From NCBI GenBank assembly GCA_016235165.1, contig JACRLX010000024.1, positions 62,001 through 126,000 of the forward strand: a DNA stretch of 64,000 nt. Reading direction: 5' to 3'. Every line of letters starts with the position of its first letter. Positions within the stretch are counted from its first letter, which is position 1. The stretch is from Rhodocyclales bacterium. Its GTDB lineage: Bacteria > Pseudomonadota > Gammaproteobacteria > Burkholderiales > Rhodocyclaceae. Positions 7,595-32,468 of this stretch are shown piece by piece. A program made the position numbers and the translations under genes. Below the pieces are notes generated by a model that was given only the letters and a program-made list of their open reading frames with translations, was not told the DNA's origin and did not search any database.

Positions 7595-9583
<1,989 letters not shown>

Positions 9584-26343: not shown

Positions 26344-26785
26344 CCTGGCCTTGGTGGACGTCACCGGGGCCAGCGGGGAGATCCTCGCGCCGGACTGGCT
26401 GGCGCGCGCCGAGAACGTGCATCGCCAGTTGCGCGACCGTCTGCCGCTGGATTACTCGCGACGCCTCGCCGAGGTATTCGCCGGCGGCGCCCGCATGATG
26501 CTGGCCACGCAGGGCGATGCGGTGCGCGGGGTCGCGGTGTGGCGCGTGATCCAGAATACCTATGAAGGTAGCCGGCTTTACGTCGATGACCTGGTTACCG
26601 ATGCGACCCATCGCTCGCGCGGTGTCGGTTGCTTTCTGCTGGGCGGGCTGGAAGTCCGTGCCAGGGAATTGGGCTGCGATGTGATCGCGCTCGATTCCGG
26701 CACCCAGCGTACCGCCGCCCATCGCTTCTACTTTCGCGAAGGTTTTGTCATTCCCAGTTTCTGCTTCAGGAAATCCCTCACATGA
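26333..26785 (+). CDS. GNAT family N-acetyltransferase
   Basis: 150 residues from the ATG at 26333. The acetyl-CoA-binding signature VDDLVTDATHRSRGVGCFLLGGLEVRAREL includes the R/Q-x-x-G-x-G/A loop, and the C-terminal HRFYFREGFVIPSFCF is typical of the last strands. The substrate is unknown. It overlaps the aminotransferase by 11 nt and hom by 4 nt, so it is locked into this operon. A role in modifying an amine or protein linked to amino-acid metabolism is possible, but no specific evidence was seen. Confidence 0.87.
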   Translation: MPADLALVDVTGASGEILAPDWLARAENVHRQLRDRLPLDYSRRLAEVFAGGARMMLATQGDAVRGVAVWRVIQNTYEGSRLYVDDLVTDATHRSRGVGCFLLGGLEVRARELGCDVIALDSGTQRTAAHRFYFREGFVIPSFCFRKSLT

Positions 26786-28092
26786 AACCCATCAATGTTG
26801 GACTGCTCGGCATCGGCACTGTCGGTGGCGGAACCTTTTCCGTACTTGCGCGCAACGAGGCCGAGATTACCCGTCGAGCCGGGCGCCCGATCCGCATCAC
26901 CAAGGTCGCGGACAAGAATCTCGAACTGGCGCGCCAGGTCACCGCAGGACGTGCCGAGGTCACCGATGACGCTTTCGCCGTGGTGTCCGATCCGGAGATC
27001 GACATCGTCATCGAGCTGATCGGCGGCTATGGCATTGCCAAGGAACTGGTGTTGCAGGCGATCGCCAATGGCAAGCATGTGGTCACGGCGAACAAGGCGC
27101 TGCTGGCCGTGCACGGCAACGAGATCTTCGCCGCCGCCAGCCAAAAGGGTGTCATGGTCGCCTTCGAAGCGGCGGTGGCCGGCGGCATCCCGATCATCAA
27201 GGCGCTGCGCGAGGGGCTCACCGCCAACCGCATCCAGTGGATCGCCGGCATCATCAACGGCACCACCAACTTCATCCTCTCCGAGATGCGCGACAAGGGC
27301 CTGCCCTTCGATACCGTGCTCAAGGAGGCGCAGCGCCTGGGCTATGCCGAGGCCGACCCGACCTTCGACATCGAGGGCGTCGACGCCGCGCACAAGATCA
27401 CCATTCTCTCGGCCCTGGCCTTCGGCATCCCGATGCAGTTCGACAAGGCCCATGTCGAGGGTATCAGCAAGCTCGATGCAGATGACATCAAATACGCGGA
27501 ACAGCTCGGCTATCGCATCAAACTGCTGGGCATCACCCGGCGTCGGCCCGACGGCGTCGAGCTGCGCGTGCATCCGACGCTGATCCCGGCCAAGCGCCTG
27601 ATCGCCAATGTCGAGGGGGCGATGAACGCGGTGCTGGTGCAAGGCGACGCCGTGGGCGCCACGCTCTACTACGGCAAGGGCGCCGGCGCCGAACCGACGG
27701 CCTCGGCGGTGATCGCCGACCTGGTCGACGTGACGCGCATGCATACCGCCGACCCGGAACATCGGGTACCGCATCTCGCCTTTCAGCCGGGTGCGGTCGA
27801 AGACACGCCGATCCTGCCGCTGGCCGAAGTGGAAACCGGCTACTACCTGCGGCTCAGAGTCGAGGACAAGCCGGGTGTGCTGGCCGACATCACGCGCATC
27901 CTCGCCGACCAGCAGATCTCGATCGACGCCATGATCCAGCGCGAGCCGAACGAAGGTGAGTCGCAAACCGACATCATCATGCTGACCCACATCACGCGCG
28001 AAAAGAACGTCGATGCCGCGATCGCGAAAATCGAGGCGCTGCCGGTGGTGAAGAAGAAGGTGATCCGCTTGCGCATGGAGGAGCTGGGCTAG
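26782..28092 (+). CDS. hom: Homoserine dehydrogenase
   Basis: 436 residues from the ATG at 26782. N-terminal NAD(P)-binding domain (VGLLGIGTVGGGTF), the catalytic domain with GIINGTTNFILSEM and the conserved EADPTFDIEGVDAAHK, and a C-terminal ACT domain (YYLRLRVEDKPGVLADITRILA) that normally mediates threonine feedback. It reduces aspartate semialdehyde to homoserine. thrC, normally the next gene, is displaced about 2.9 kb downstream by accessory DNA. Confidence 0.97.
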   Translation: MKPINVGLLGIGTVGGGTFSVLARNEAEITRRAGRPIRITKVADKNLELARQVTAGRAEVTDDAFAVVSDPEIDIVIELIGGYGIAKELVLQAIANGKHVVTANKALLAVHGNEIFAAASQKGVMVAFEAAVAGGIPIIKALREGLTANRIQWIAGIINGTTNFILSEMRDKGLPFDTVLKEAQRLGYAEADPTFDIEGVDAAHKITILSALAFGIPMQFDKAHVEGISKLDADDIKYAEQLGYRIKLLGITRRRPDGVELRVHPTLIPAKRLIANVEGAMNAVLVQGDAVGATLYYGKGAGAEPTASAVIADLVDVTRMHTADPEHRVPHLAFQPGAVEDTPILPLAEVETGYYLRLRVEDKPGVLADITRILADQQISIDAMIQREPNEGESQTDIIMLTHITREKNVDAAIAKIEALPVVKKKVIRLRMEELG

Positions 28093-28150: not shown

Positions 28151-28399
28151 ATGCAAGTCAATATGCTGGAAGCCAAAAATGCACTGTCGCGTCTGGTTGC
28201 GGCAGCCGAGCGCGGTGAGGAAGTGATCCTCGCCCGCGACGGTAAGCCGGTGGCGAAGATCGTCCGCTACCAGGCGCCGAAGGTGAAGCCGCCGGGGTCC
28301 ATGCGCGGCCGGATCAAGGTCTCGCCGGATTGGGATAGTCCCGAAACCAACGCCGAAATTGCCGCGCTTTTCGAAGAGTCCGCAATGCGGGGCCTGTAA
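28151..28399 (+). CDS. Type II antitoxin, Phd/YefM (VapB-like) family
   Basis: 82 residues. The N-terminal segment MQVNMLEAKNALSRLVAAAERGEEVILARDGKPVAKIV is the Phd/YefM DNA-binding fold; the C-terminal part (about residues 48-82) would wrap the toxin. GGAGA precedes the ATG. Two direct copies of TTGGCTAA lie upstream (about 28108-28126) and could be operator half-sites for autoregulation. It is paired with the PIN toxin gene 12 nt downstream. Confidence 0.9.
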   Translation: MQVNMLEAKNALSRLVAAAERGEEVILARDGKPVAKIVRYQAPKVKPPGSMRGRIKVSPDWDSPETNAEIAALFEESAMRGL

Positions 28400-28411: not shown

Positions 28412-28780
28412 ATGCTCCTTTTCGATACCAATATCCTGGTTCCCTGGCTTGCGGGAGCCGCTCTTCCAAATTCCCTGGTCAAACGAGTGCGCAATGAAGG
28501 TGCTTATGTCAGTCCGATCTCGATCTGGGAAATCTGGATCAAGGTCCGCATCGGCAAACTGGAAATGCAAACCGACAACCTGGTGCGCGAGGTCGACGCG
28601 GCACAGTTGACCTGGTTGCCGGTGCTTCCGGATCATGCCGAAGCAGTGCGCGACCTGCCCCTGCTGCACCGCGATCCCTTCGACCGTTTGCTGCTGGCGC
28701 AGGCCAAGGCTGAAGGCTTGACGATAGTGACCACTGACCGTGTCTTCGGCGAGTATCTGCCGGGCGTTCTCGTCGTTTGA
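28412..28780 (+). CDS. Type II toxin, PIN domain (VapC-like)
   Basis: 122 residues. The PIN-domain acidic residues are present: Asp5 in MLLFDTNIL, Glu40 in SPISIWEIWIK, Asp91 in HRDPFDRLL and Asp109 in VTTDRVF. Such toxins are Mg2+-dependent ribonucleases that cut tRNA or rRNA sites; the specific target cannot be read from sequence. With the antitoxin it forms the module nearest to hom in the accessory segment. Toxin-antitoxin pairs in such segments often act to stabilise the DNA. Confidence 0.9.
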   Translation: MLLFDTNILVPWLAGAALPNSLVKRVRNEGAYVSPISIWEIWIKVRIGKLEMQTDNLVREVDAAQLTWLPVLPDHAEAVRDLPLLHRDPFDRLLLAQAKAEGLTIVTTDRVFGEYLPGVLVV

Positions 28781-28836
28781 CAAGGATCCCGGAATGATCC
28801 GAACCAGGCGCTTCTTGTCTGCATATGCAGCCCGTT

Positions 28837-28876
28837 TGACGGAATGTTTCCCGTCATGACGGAAAGCTTGCCGTCA
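28837..28876. repeat. Symmetric cluster of four TGACGG/CCGTCA motifs
   Basis: TGACGG at 28837, CCGTCA at 28851, TGACGG at 28857 and CCGTCA at 28871. This gives two hairpins with 6-bp arms and 8-nt loops back to back, joined by the palindrome CCGTCATGACGG. The cluster sits where the IS110-family transposase reading frame loses its family resemblance. Confidence 0.75.
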
Positions 28877-29345
28877 ATTGGGTGGCACACTTGAGCTGGT
28901 GCCGGGCTTGCGTCTGCGCCTCCTTGGCCGCCTCGCGCGCCCGCGTCAGGTCGCGGATGGCTTCGTCGTCGGGGTGGGGCACATACACCGCACTGAGTTC
29001 GCCGGCGCGATGCAGTCGCGCAAGCATCTCGGCGTCGCGTCGATCAGTCTTGACTCGATCTCCGCTGCGCTTGGGGATCATCGAGGGCGCGACGACGACA
29101 CACTCCAGCCCCTTGGCAGCCAGGTGCCGGTAGATCACATAGCCGCATGGGCCCGCCTCGTAGACGAAATGCAGCGCTTTCCCGGTAGCCTGCAATTTCC
29201 TCACCGCCTGATCCAGCGCCGCCAGATCGCCGCCAATGCTGCCGTAATGCCGTACCTCCTGCCGACCCAACTCGTCGGCCAGCGCTATGTCAATCGACTC
29301 CTTGTGGACGTCCATTCCGATGTAAAGGTTGCTAGACTTTGTCAT
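28854..29345 (-). mobile_element. Truncated IS110-family transposase (N-terminal part)
   Basis: 163 residues, against about 330-400 for complete members. It carries the DEDD-type catalytic domain: MDVHKESIDIALADE with Asp11, FVYEAGPCGYVIYRHL, and KTDRRDAEMLARLHRAGELS. The frame leaves the family after AKEAQTQARHQLK near 28883 and stops soon after, so the C-terminal serine-containing Tnp20 domain is missing and the element should be inactive. The start codon lies 15 nt from a probable attC site at 29360. Some IS1111/IS110 elements are known to target attC sites, which may explain the neighbourhood, though that subgroup was not established here. Confidence 0.85.
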
Positions 29346-29359
29346 GGCCTGCCTCCTGT

Positions 29360-29454
29360 ATTTAACGTTTGTGCCTCCGTGCCAACCGTGTGGCTCTGTG
29401 TGCCTCTCGCACTCAATCCACGTTACTACGGAGGTGGGCCTCCCTGCGTTAAAC
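29360..29454 (+). other. Probable attC recombination site (upstream end of cassette array)
   Basis: It begins with ATTTAAC (fits RYYYAAC) and ends with GTTAAAC (fits GTTRRRY), 95 bp apart. Internal complementarity includes CCTCCGT near 29373 against ACGGAGG near 29429. It marks the left boundary of the cassette that carries the NTF2-like gene. It is longer than the three following sites and shares little sequence with them, so it is less certain. Confidence 0.45.
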
Positions 29455-29488
29455 CATTATGTCTGGGCCTCTTCGAGAATGACGCGCC

Positions 29489-29920
29489 ATGGCTGATCGC
29501 CCGGTTACAGAACTTTCCCCCGAGCAGCGGGACTTGTGGCAGCGCGTGAACGATCTGTGGTCATTGTCGTTGGAGCGCAATGCCGAGAAGATTCGATCGA
29601 CCCTTCATCCTCGGTATGTCGGCTGGGACATGAATCATCCGACCACCCACGACCGAGAAGCCGCTATCCAGTCCGTACTCGGTGATACGCCCGCCGTTAC
29701 CGGCTATGAGCTTGTCCCGCTGAGCGTGCAGGTCTACGACCACACCGTTGGAATTGTGCACTACATGTATTCGGCGTCAGTCACCTCGAAGGACGCAGCA
29801 CCACTGCGAATTACAGGCAAGTGGTCGGAGGTCTATCTCCGCCAAGACAGCCAATGGGTAATGATCAGCGTCAGCGGTAGGCCGGATTCGCCGACAGGAG
29901 ATTCCAGTGCGGTTGAATAG
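29489..29920 (+). CDS. NTF2/SnoaL-like (DUF4440-type) protein in a gene cassette
   Basis: 143 residues. The pattern LWQRVNDLWSLSLERNAEKIRSTLHPRYVGWDMN, then GYELVPLSVQVYDHTVGIVHYMYSASV and ITGKWSEVYLRQDSQWVMISVSG, is the cone-shaped NTF2/SnoaL fold used by many small enzymes and binding proteins. No catalytic assignment is possible. It is the only gene between the attC sites at 29360 and 29933, so it is the cargo of a single cassette. Proteins of this fold have been found in integron cassettes before. Confidence 0.8.
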   Translation: MADRPVTELSPEQRDLWQRVNDLWSLSLERNAEKIRSTLHPRYVGWDMNHPTTHDREAAIQSVLGDTPAVTGYELVPLSVQVYDHTVGIVHYMYSASVTSKDAAPLRITGKWSEVYLRQDSQWVMISVSGRPDSPTGDSSAVE

Positions 29921-29932
29921 TCGGCCGCCGAG

Positions 29933-29995
29933 GCCCAACCCGGCAGTCGAGCGGACCTGCGCAAAAAGCCGCGCAGGCCGCTCACTTCGTTGGGG
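29933..29995 (+). other. attC site 1
   Basis: 63 bp from GCCCAAC to GTTGGGG. The inner arms GCGGACCTGCGC and GCGCAGGCCGC pair perfectly apart from one unpaired A, the extrahelical base expected in attC folded bottom strands. The loop is AAAAAGCC. The terminal TTGGGG belongs to the next cassette and is exactly complementary to the CCCCAAC that opens attC site 2, as the cassette model predicts. Confidence 0.85.
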
Positions 29996-30047
29996 CTCTC
30001 CATATCGCCGTATGGCTTTTTGTATGGGCTAGTGATACTCTGCGTCC

Positions 30048-30326
30048 ATGGCTAAGACTCGCTTTGATTGGGACCCAGACAAGGACGCCGAGAATCAGAG
30101 AAAGCACGGGGTCTCCTTCTCCCGTGCCCAATACGCCTTTGCGGATCCGCAGCGCGTGATAGCCAAGGACGAAGCGCACAGCCAAGCGGAAGAACGGTTC
30201 TATTGCTTCGGAGAAGTTGACGACGGTGTGCTCACGGTGCGGTTCACGTACCGCGCTTCGGTTATTCGAATCATCGGCGCCGGTTATTGGCGCAAAGGAA
30301 AGGCGATCTATGAGCGCGAAAATTAA
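30048..30326 (+). CDS. brnT: Type II toxin, BrnT family
   Basis: 92 residues. The BrnT pattern is clear: FDWDPDKDAENQRKHGVSFSRAQYAFADPQRV, then ERFYCFGEVDDGVLTVRFTYR and RIIGAGYWRKGKAIYE. BrnT is a RelE-like ribonuclease toxin that blocks translation. It is the first gene of the second cassette, starting 53 nt after attC site 1, and overlaps the antitoxin gene by 17 nt. Toxin-before-antitoxin order is the normal one for brnTA. Confidence 0.93.
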   Translation: MAKTRFDWDPDKDAENQRKHGVSFSRAQYAFADPQRVIAKDEAHSQAEERFYCFGEVDDGVLTVRFTYRASVIRIIGAGYWRKGKAIYEREN

Positions 30327-30591
30327 ATACACCGATGAACCCCTTGGCAAAGTTCAGGTGGTTCCCGACTTCCTCCCCTCGCCGGCTGAGTTGGCTTTTC
30401 GTGAAGAGGGCGTGAAGGTGACTCTGGCTCTGAGCAAGAAGAGCATCGAGTTCTTCAAGTCCGAGGCTTCAAAGCATCACACTCAGTACCAGCGCATGAT
30501 TCGCCGGCTTCTCGACGCTTACGTTGATGGCCAAGCCCCAACCCGGCAGTCCACACGGACGCTGCGCGATAAAGCCGCGCAGCGCCGGTGA
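30310..30591 (+). CDS. brnA: Antitoxin, BrnA family
   Basis: 93 residues from the ATG at 30310. The core VTLALSKKSIEFFKSEASKHHTQYQRMIRRLLDAYVDGQ is the ribbon-helix-helix DNA-binding region of BrnA, here at the C-terminal end. The final 18 or so codons (TRQSTRTLRDKAAQRR and the stop) lie inside attC site 2, so the recombination site encodes the end of the antitoxin. BrnA binds BrnT and represses the operon. The tail sequence would differ if the cassette recombined within attC. Confidence 0.9.
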   Translation: MSAKIKYTDEPLGKVQVVPDFLPSPAELAFREEGVKVTLALSKKSIEFFKSEASKHHTQYQRMIRRLLDAYVDGQAPTRQSTRTLRDKAAQRR

Positions 30592-30605
30592 CTTCTACGC
30601 TAGCC
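30536..30605 (+). other. attC site 2
   Basis: 70 bp, opening CCCCAAC and closing GCTAGCC. The inner arms CGGACGCTGCGC and GCGCAGCGCCG pair with one extrahelical A; the loop is GATAAAGCC. It shares AACCCGGCAGTC and AAAGCCGCGCAG with site 1. The closing CTAGCC matches, with one change, the complement of the GGCTAAC that opens site 3. Confidence 0.85.
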
Positions 30606-30620
30606 GCCATAGGATTCGCC

Positions 30621-30716
30621 ATGCGTACTAAGCTGCTAGTCATCAACGCAACTCTGCCCAAAGATATGCGTTCAGCTCTCGATGCAATATTTGGCGTACC
30701 CCGAAATGACGGCTAA
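30621..30716 (+). CDS. Possible 31-residue peptide, cargo of the third cassette
   Basis: An ATG at 30621 opens a frame of 31 codons (MRTKLLVINATLPKDMRS, then ALDAIFGVPRNDG) whose stop TAA lies within the opening motif of attC site 3, the same layout as brnA in site 2. It fills most of a cassette only about 175 bp long. No clear Shine-Dalgarno sequence is visible, and no family is recognised. It could equally be non-coding; cassettes without genes are known. Confidence 0.35.
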   Translation: MRTKLLVINATLPKDMRSALDAIFGVPRNDG

Positions 30717-30779
30717 CACTGCAATGCGCCGGACTTCGCGCATAAAGCCGCACGAGGCCGGTGATTTTGAACGTCAGCG
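30711..30779 (+). other. attC site 3; unassigned DNA follows to thrC
   Basis: 69 bp, opening GGCTAAC and closing GTCAGCG after TTTTGAAC. The arms GCCGGACTTCGCGC and GCACGAGGCCGG pair partly, again with an unpaired A; the loop is ATAAAGCC. The closing motif deviates from GTTRRRY by one T-to-C change, like site 2. From 30780 to 31040 no gene or further attC is apparent, only a diverged copy of the dispersed repeat near 30952. Confidence 0.75.
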
Positions 30780-31040
30780 TCGCAGTCGAATCAACTATGG
30801 ATCGCGACGGAACCCTTCTTGGTGCGTGTCACGCACTCGCAACGCAGGGCGCTTACTTGACGATTCAGCGTTCACTATGCAGAGGGAAGGTTGCCTTCCG
30901 GGAAGCAAAGGTGCCGAGGTCGAATTCAATTTCCCACGGTCTAGCCGAAATCGCCGTCGCGCAGGCGCCGACTTTCAGTTCCCGCTTGAAGGCACCGATC
31001 ACGCCAGTTCTTCAACTTTTTCTCGTTTTTCAAACCTGAC

Positions 31041-32468
31041 ATGAAATACATTTCCACCCGCGGTCACGCCGACCCCCAATCCTTCTGCGACATCCTGCTG
31101 GGCGGACTCGCTCCCGACGGCGGGCTCTACCTTCCCGAATCCTATCCGCAGGTCAGTGCCGCCGAACTCGCCGAATGGCGGGACTTGCCCTATCACGCGC
31201 TGGCGCTGAAGATCCTGCTCAAGTTTGTCGACGACATTCCGGCCTGCGACTTGAAGATGCTGGCCGACCGGACGTATTCGGCGAATGTTTACCGCCATTG
31301 CCGTACCGGGCGCGATGCCGGCGATATCACCCCGCTGACCACGCTGGAGCCGGGTTTTCATCTGCTGGAGCTGTCCAACGGGCCGACCCTGGCCTTCAAG
31401 GACATGGCCATGCAGCTGCTTGGCCATCTGTTCGAGTACGTGCTGGAAAAGCGCGGCGAGTCGATCAACATTCTCGGCGCGACCTCGGGCGATACCGGCT
31501 CGGCCGCCGAATACGCGATGCGCGGCAAGCAGCGGGTGAAGGTCTTCATGCTCTCGCCGGACGGCAAGATGAGTGCCTTCCAGCGGGCGCAGATGTATTC
31601 GCTGCAGGAGCCGAACATCTTCAACATTGCCGTGCGCGGCATGTTCGACGATGCCCAGGACATCGTCAAGGCGGTATCCAGCGATGCCGAGTTCAAGGCG
31701 AAATACCGCATCGGCGCGGTCAATTCGATCAACTGGGCGCGGGTCTTGGCCCAGGTGGTGTATTACTTCAAGGGCTATTTCGCGGCGACCAGCAGCAACG
31801 ACCAGTGCGTCGCGTTCTGCGTGCCCTCGGGCAATTTCGGCAACATCTGCGCCGGCCATATCGCGCGCATGATGGGCTTGCCGATTGGTCGCCTGGTCCT
31901 GGCCACCAACGAGAACGACGTGCTGGACGAGTTTTTTCGCAGCGGCGTGTACCGTCCGCGCGCGACGTCCGAAACCCATGTCACCTCCAGTCCGTCGATG
32001 GATATTTCGAAGGCGTCGAACTTCGAGCGCTTCGTTTTCGATCTGGTCGGCCGCGACGCGGCGAAGCTGCGGGAGCTCTGGGCCCAGGTGGACGCCGGAG
32101 GCGCCTTCGACCTGCGCGGCACACCTTATCTGGCAGCCTTGCCGGGCTATGGATTCGTCTCCGGGCGCAGCTCGCATGCGGATCGCCTGGCCACCATACG
32201 CGACGTATGGAATCGCCACCGGATCATGATCGATACCCACACGGCGGATGGCGTCAAGGTGGCCAGGGAGCATCTCGACCCGACGATGCCCATGGTGGTG
32301 CTGGAGACGGCTCAGGCGGTGAAGTTCTCCGAAACCATACAGGAGGCACTGGGGCGGGATCCGGTGCGGCCGAAAGACTTTGATGGAATCGAGCTGCTGC
32401 CGCAGCGCGTCGACGTGGTGGATGCGTCGGTGGATCAGGTGAAGGCCATCATCACCCGCAACTGCTGA
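31041..32468 (+). CDS. thrC: Threonine synthase
   Basis: 475 residues, the long form found in proteobacteria. MKYISTRGHADPQSFCDILLGGLAPDGGLYLPESYP is the N-terminal signature, and LAFKDMAMQLLGHL contains the PLP lysine. It converts O-phosphohomoserine to threonine and completes the pathway begun by hom. The accessory segment breaks the usual hom-thrC contact, so thrC may now depend on its own promoter or on read-through from the cassettes. No strong promoter was seen in the 260 nt upstream. Confidence 0.97.
   Translation: MKYISTRGHADPQSFCDILLGGLAPDGGLYLPESYPQVSAAELAEWRDLPYHALALKILLKFVDDIPACDLKMLADRTYSANVYRHCRTGRDAGDITPLTTLEPGFHLLELSNGPTLAFKDMAMQLLGHLFEYVLEKRGESINILGATSGDTGSAAEYAMRGKQRVKVFMLSPDGKMSAFQRAQMYSLQEPNIFNIAVRGMFDDAQDIVKAVSSDAEFKAKYRIGAVNSINWARVLAQVVYYFKGYFAATSSNDQCVAFCVPSGNFGNICAGHIARMMGLPIGRLVLATNENDVLDEFFRSGVYRPRATSETHVTSSPSMDISKASNFERFVFDLVGRDAAKLRELWAQVDAGGAFDLRGTPYLAALPGYGFVSGRSSHADRLATIRDVWNRHRIMIDTHTADGVKVAREHLDPTMPMVVLETAQAVKFSETIQEALGRDPVRPKDFDGIELLPQRVDVVDASVDQVKAIITRNC

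Follow-up and report, generated by a model that had tools for sequence, protein, structure and literature searches.

An integrase-less array of gene cassettes between hom and thrC of a Rhodocyclales bacterium, probably the remainder of a chromosomal integron

Results

The window analysed here, a stretch of 64,000 bases (G000:C2:62001-126000, G000 being the window's genome of 4.47 Mb in 57 contigs, 99.99% complete), contains the core genes hom and thrC with a gap of 2948 bases between the end of the former at 28092 and the start of the latter at 31041. On the left, hom (homoserine dehydrogenase; 26779-28092, plus strand; Pfam PF00742, PF03447 and ACT) was set to start at the ATG preceding MKPINVGLLG, the listed open reading frame beginning at 26629; on the right, thrC (threonine synthase; PF14821 and PF00291) occupies 31041-32468 of the same strand. 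The gap holds a phd-type antitoxin gene (28151-28399, plus; PF02604, 32.1 bits), a gene for a PIN-domain (VapC-type) toxin (28412-28780, plus; PF01850, 59.2 bits), a fragment of an IS110-type transposase (minus strand; PF01548, 68.3 bits, in the reading frame 28854-29345), a DUF4440 gene and a brnT gene followed by a brnA-like one, as well as three hairpin sites. Promoter and terminator scans yielded no more than in shuffles.

Rightwards of the transposase fragment the DNA can be read as three cassettes, all on the plus strand. Cassette 1 (29465-29989), its first two bases lying beyond the insertion sequence (IS), carries the DUF4440 gene (29489-29920; PF14534, 48.8 bits), whose protein has relatives in two assemblies according to a contig scan perhaps covering genomes other than the window's own, and is followed by the site attC1 (29933-29995, plus). 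Cassette 2 (29990-30599) carries brnT (30048-30326; PF04365, 84.3 bits) and the brnA-like gene (30310-30591; BrnA, 18.5 bits, which is below the cut-off), with attC2 at 30536-30605 (plus), the R' of which is changed to GCTAGCC. Cassette 3 comprises the 174 bases between the crossovers of attC2 and attC3 (30600-30773) and can be read to contain an open frame of 31 codons (30621-30716); attC3 lies at 30711-30779 (plus), and its R' is better read as GTCAGCG at 30773-30779. The following DNA (30780-30935, plus) is featureless: its reading frames match nothing in Pfam at E<=0.1, it has no copy among the other fetched loci, and it is possibly the remainder of a further cassette. The last part before thrC, which we call the right segment (30936-31040, plus), starts near a dispersed repeat (30952-30975) and ends in CTGAC.

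This repeat is a 24-base motif, CGCCGTNNCNNCAGCGCCGACTTT, that occurs at ten places of the window with at most 3 mismatches (0.01 expected), at 9583, 16275, 24078, 30952, 32495, 35024, 42336, 47818 and two weaker ones; a slightly looser pattern has 491 occurrences in the genome at no more than one mismatch and 0 in a reversed control. The motif was considered as a cassette target and rejected: 2 of the 119 attC sites collected below adjoin it, both at hom-thrC.

The earlier note on this DNA had placed attC sites at 29933, 30536 and 30711 and had proposed covariance models as a check. All three sites were found by our model R2, which gave exactly three matches in the 64,000 bases at E<=10 (E-values of these models being rough), at 30535-30606 (77.8 bits), 29932-29996 (65.1 bits) and 30710-30780 (57.0 bits). 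R2 was trained on 97 attC matches from other loci and none from the window; these had been gathered using a model, R1, that contains the window's sites, so that R2 is window-free in its sequences only and not in its alignment. The common loop and arms and the extrahelical A described before are shared by six sites, three from the window and three from contig C56 of G000, with the unpaired A invariant over all of them. Under the attC structure 89.1% of the cells pair, and 12 of the 25 pairs are changed on both sides in at least one of the six sites, the figure for shuffles being 5.4 and no shuffle out of 500 reaching the observed number. Folded alone as DNA, attC1 and attC2 are equalled by 0-1 of 200 shuffles, attC3 by 145 and 169 of 200 on its two strands, and the rejected fourth site described below by none of 200. 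Since attC3 fails this comparison while the rejected site passes it, folding alone does not decide. Rfam has no match in the hom-thrC insert region. Our first motif search picked attC1 and the false fourth site together with other false pairs, missed attC2, attC3 and the C56 sites, and was replaced by the covariance models.

Among the 41 genomes searched with R1, 24 of the 25 that belong to the genus gave a match; in G000 itself 150 of 3559 first-look candidates were scored. A second array of G000 occupies positions 1-3300 of contig C56 (L015) on the minus strand with its three attC sites, and one of its cassettes presumably encodes, judging from the sequence, a DNA methyltransferase and a second protein that may be a restriction enzyme. 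Further clusters found with R1 lie on C13 (L118, 5583-7381, three sites) and C18 (L119, 5512-6251, two sites).

Matches to cassette 2 were also present in 82 plasmid records. In 11 of the 12 records listed the match falls on the attC with which a blaOXA-2 family cassette ends; in ten of those 11, attC2 shares 93.7% identity with it over 63 bases. Such a plasmid attC scores 78.1 bits with R2. Together with its counterparts in the genus (L179:5100 and L175:5782), attC2 is 92-94% identical to the plasmid sequence. The blaOXA-2 family cassette differs in carrying an unrelated gene and in residing in plasmid-borne integrons, and the likeness, in a comparison that covered this genus and plasmids, hints at a related source of the two attC sites.

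It had also been claimed that the bases after each crossover are complementary to the opening of the following attC, and this held true. The agreement is exact in cassette 2 (GTTGGGG/GTTGGGG) and has one change, located in the core triplet, in cassette 3 (GCTAGCC/GTTAGCC), while the seven bases after the IS end in cassette 1, GGGCCTC, are the reverse complement of bases before and in the R'' of attC1; as expected of gene cassettes, the start is complementary to the cassette's own attC R''. In fetched arrays with 119 attC sites, 84 cassettes are bounded on both sides; full agreement of the four variable bases was seen in 61 of them, compared with 14 of 119 for the two halves of one and the same site. 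The mean agreement was 3.35 against 2.29 under shuffled pairing, with 0 of 10,000 shuffles as good. The 119 sites were transcribed manually from 147 rows; those dropped, 28 in number, were duplicate entries for the same place or its reverse strand, incomplete matches, hits from beyond the genus other than G278, a single moderate hit (L121:1098) and weak hits.

A fourth probable attC at 29360 had been proposed as well, and this assignment did not survive. The sequence in question (29361-29455) is part of the left end of a truncated IS (28890-29464, minus strand), recurs in the IS copies of G022 and G005, and was not listed by R2 even with the filters off. Read in reverse, 28890-29464 corresponds with 91% identity to bases 1-575 of a whole element of 1646 bases in G022 (L168, 84-1729), and the palindrome TTTAACG...GTTAAAC that it contains also lies within the G022 and G005 copies, with different flanks. 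The whole G022 element has inverted repeats, ATGGTTTAACG, located 7 and 3 bases inside its ends, which is the subterminal arrangement of IS1111; the window copy, with the inverted repeat CGTTAAACCAT at 29447, keeps the left end only. In G022 the element sits between the GTT and the ATGC of an attC, and a copy in G618 that is 68% identical is placed in an attC likewise, so that insertion after GTT was read by eye in both copies with both ends visible; one side only is visible in the window and G005 copies. Because the window copy abuts the GGGCC of cassette 1, it is located at the R' junction. As this case shows, an attC-targeting IS can have an end that is mistaken by eye for an attC.

The note's statement that no integrase is present is correct for the window and incorrect for the genome. 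A search for intI of the kind that it had suggested, with TIGR02249, gave no match on contig C2, where the nearest tyrosine recombinase lies at 241536, outside the window, and a sole match over the cut-off in the genome at C41:36677-37621 (476.8 bits, full length, no stop). The latter protein aligns with IntI4 (PDB 2a3v) over residues 18-330. Of the 31 genomes of the genus, 24 have an integrase match no weaker than 1e-40, which in 23 exceeds the cut-off, and attC sites of the family described here follow an integrase in G002, G012, G007 and G023. Upstream of the integrase genes the regions are alike up to a stretch ending mostly in CACACTTAACG^TT and diverge beyond it, the pattern that attI sites with differing first cassettes would produce. 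For the C41 integrase the upstream likeness breaks off roughly at the expected start of attI, and about 140 bases of contig remain past that point, so that the own attI of this distant integrase was not seen; no tRNA was found at the tRNA-like end of C41.

Twelve stretches from upstream of integrase genes, three of them of a shorter kind, were combined into an nhmmer profile of putative attI sites, defined here by likeness, which was run on the window and the loci fetched by then. It revealed an attI-like site that the earlier note does not mention, at 28824-28892 (plus; the match reaching 28894; E 1.8e-15, 56.3 bits), with 56 of 69 bases identical to G012 and with the crossover end (AACGTT) missing. 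It overlaps the IS by 3 bases at the deletion junction, and phd-vapC, not intI, lies upstream of it. A second match (E 8.2e-10), also next to vapC, was obtained at the hom-thrC junction of G014. AttI-like stretches with no integrase in the fetched DNA occur also on G022:C19, G005:C32 and G014:C85, where remnants of an integrase 5' end and of its upstream region are recognisable by eye, and weaker ones on G044:C49, G001:C56 and G278:C2. The positions of such stretches include L187:4080, L048:564, L047:2355, L173:6170 and L178:3405, and the first three of these have short remains of the integrase 5' region upstream, again by eye.

Aligning the hom-thrC junction with that of relatives, as had been advised, showed that the DNA carried there differs among them, and a cassette array lacking a local integrase at this place is borne out both by the R2 sites and by these varying contents. 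thrC was found in 29 of the 31 genomes of the genus. In 20 of the 29 it adjoins hom, in G019 about 150 bases intervene, and in eight (G000, G002, G004, G007, G014, G023, G041 and G045, the contig of the last starting inside the insert) there is an insert of at least 1 kb. Five of these eight inserts (G000, G002, G014, G023 and G045) contain attC sites, all oriented toward thrC. When eight pieces of these inserts were compared with the fetched loci, leaving out the cut first cassette of G045, none was common to two junctions over its length, a 111-base piece alike in G002 and G023 being the sole shared one. The gene pair at the G002 and G023 junctions is, we assume, hicBA, having been recognised from its sequence only. 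The phd-vapC pair or part of it lies at the junction in G041 (without attC), G014, G004 (phd with another PIN gene, without attC) and, in part, G023, and these genomes fall on both deep branches of the tree of hom and thrC proteins, a tree in which 10 of 26 inner branches have below 80% support and from which the two genomes without a thrC match are absent. The attI profile found no site at the other six of the eight filled junctions.

The right segment before thrC has 70-71% BLAST likeness over 90-96 bases in G004, G002 and G041, and is alike by alignment in G014, G045 and G023; the filled alleles therefore seem to be of common origin, with many losses or exchanges. At two filled junctions, L062 and L079, short repeats around AAAGGGGCCAGGTTCGAATTGATGAA just before thrC look by eye like the remains of small transposons. 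Filled and empty states require 7 changes on the tree (G019 excluded from the count) and are not clustered, 299 of 500 shuffles being as low. The nearest relative of G000 on the tree, G018, has an empty junction. The thrC of G000 is, along most of the gene, nearest to that of G018; the hom of G000 is 89.7% identical to that of G007 and 88.9% to that of G018. No clear recombination tract emerged from sliding identity along the two genes. Between G000 and G014, phd-vapC is 85.0% identical, thrC 76.5% and hom 84.4%, and the spacer from vapC to the attI-like site is alike in 27 of 43 aligned bases (score 12, the best of 1000 shuffles reaching 4).

Copies of the cassettes were sought in 399 genomes of the order and 31 of the genus. 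A match was present in 123 of the 399, most of those among the matches listed being pieces of attC. Of the best matches of both searches, 22 copies of cassette 2 at other places (16 in the genus) were picked for comparison; all 22 are confined to 29930-30606, and nine end exactly at 30599, the crossover base. The same cassette thus occurs elsewhere with the same ends, in G023 in an array beside an integrase. Neither cassette 1 nor cassette 3 had a copy with cassette ends among the matches listed from the same 399 and 31 genomes or in the fetched loci. Partial matches to attC1, 27 of the 38 listed ending at one base, probably reflect a short deletion in attC1 and were not used as evidence. The body of cassette 2 is 86.6-96.7% identical in 15 genomes of the genus, whose thrC genes are 76.3-82.9% identical to that of G000, which argues that cassette 2 moved between species recently. 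Its identity also exceeds that of hom in 12 of 14 relatives, in some by little; given these small margins and the two exceptions, the word recent rests mainly on thrC. The earlier claim of a recent addition to a core operon thus holds for the BrnT/BrnA cassette and does not for the insert as a whole, which looks old, or exchanged between species, in view of the presence of phd-vapC on both deep branches.

Discussion

With three clustered attC sites recognised by R2 and no integron integrase beside them, the array belongs to the CALINs, which the excerpt of the source available describes as having at least two attC sites and no adjacent integrase and as probably degraded integrons. It differs in that an attI-like copy is still recognisable, an IS precedes cassette 1, and other cassettes occupy the same junction in relatives. 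Three origins of CALINs are proposed in the consulted part of PMC8618304: off-target insertion, loss of the integrase and rearrangement. The insert between hom and thrC is, in our opinion, probably a decayed chromosomal integron that kept part of its attI and its cassettes and lost its integrase, and in which cassettes continued to be exchanged, later likely in trans. Against this reading, the attI-like site is present at only two of the eight filled junctions, G000 and G014.

That a distant integrase put the cassettes into an ordinary hom-thrC site where no integron had ever been is an improbable alternative, even though off-target insertion is among the origins named in that excerpt, 20 of 29 genomes have hom directly next to thrC, and in G002 an attC directly adjoins the right segment, with no attI-like site found there. 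The attI-like copy, which has the expected position and orientation both here and in G014, indicates a former platform, and the loss of an integrase therefore explains the array better. We also think it unlikely that the cassettes came with a hom-thrC region acquired from another species by ordinary homologous exchange, with no integrase action at the locus. The scatter of filled and empty states over the tree would agree with it, and so would the hom of G000 being slightly closer to G007 than to its nearest relative; however, no other filled junction among the pieces compared has these cassettes, thrC is for the most part nearest to that of G018, whose junction is empty, and cassette 2 has sharp cassette boundaries elsewhere. 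As for a small genomic island whose hairpins and toxin-antitoxin genes resemble an integron by chance, such genes are indeed present, attC3 alone folds no better than shuffles, and Rfam is silent here, but the covariation in six sites, the R2 matches, the cassette rule, the confinement of cassette 2 copies to cassette boundaries and the 93.7% likeness over 63 bases between attC2 and the attC of a cassette family of plasmid integrons make this explanation almost inconceivable.

Under the integrase-loss reading, an integron platform would once have stood at hom-thrC, and its integrase gene would have been lost, part of attI and the cassettes remaining, with the phd-vapC pair now on the side where the integrase would be. 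Site-specific recombination at folded attC sites would have brought cassettes in and swapped them, cassette 2 being a recent arrival. The likeness of the vapC-attI spacer in G000 and G014 suggests that their common ancestor probably had no integrase there any more. If the recent cassette arrived on a platform without an integrase, an integrase elsewhere did the work; later exchange would most likely have occurred in trans, by an enzyme such as that encoded on C41, because the integrase-less vapC-attI junction is seemingly shared with G014, where other cassettes are found. An integrase encoded elsewhere may thus have placed cassette 2 here. An IS1111-type element would then have inserted at the junction ahead of cassette 1, and a deletion would have shortened it together with the attI end. 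Both this order of events and the action in trans are what we infer from the present arrangement. The weak link of the trans reading is the age of the vapC-attI junction: the likeness of phd-vapC between G000 and G014, higher than that of thrC though close to that of hom, would also fit exchange between species and hence a younger junction. Today the attI copy is without its crossover and the R' triplets read GCT in attC2 and GTC in attC3 instead of GTT, and this damage presumably leaves the array mostly locked.

Elements of the IS1111 family that target attC have reportedly been described by Tetu and Holmes in 2008 and by Post and Hall in 2009. In the accessible portion of PMC11187229, the repeats of the family are described as subterminal, having 7 and 3 extra bases outside them, and some members are said to target attC. 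ISKpn4 and ISPst6, treated in the same portion, resemble our element in having a DEDD transposase, the 7/3 subterminal repeats and a place in attC; the window copy differs in being truncated, and the likeness is one of description rather than of comparison with ISFinder entries. The CALINs of Xanthomonas, for example beside secD, are presented in the excerpt of PMC12444791 as an old fixed platform with the integrase lost, and CALINs are there said to be open to mobilisation in trans. The strains of one Xanthomonas pathovar share the same two cassettes according to that excerpt, whereas at hom-thrC the cassettes differ between species and one of them looks recent.

CALINs, mobilisation in trans and attC-targeting IS1111 elements are thus already in print; our limited literature search met no report of a CALIN with a retained attI and cassette turnover at one junction. 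The origin of a CALIN is hard to decide from its sequence, and the retained attI-like site favours one of the three proposed routes here. It is conceivable, if rather doubtful, that hom-thrC has been an attI platform without an integrase since an early ancestor of the genus and still recruits cassettes in trans; as attI-like sites with no adjacent integrase occur at further loci of the genus, one integrase may serve several docking sites per genome. Since the junction is shared and lacks an integrase and one cassette has moved recently, recruitment in trans can be tested directly here, and a distant integrase may still serve orphan platforms such as the one at hom-thrC.
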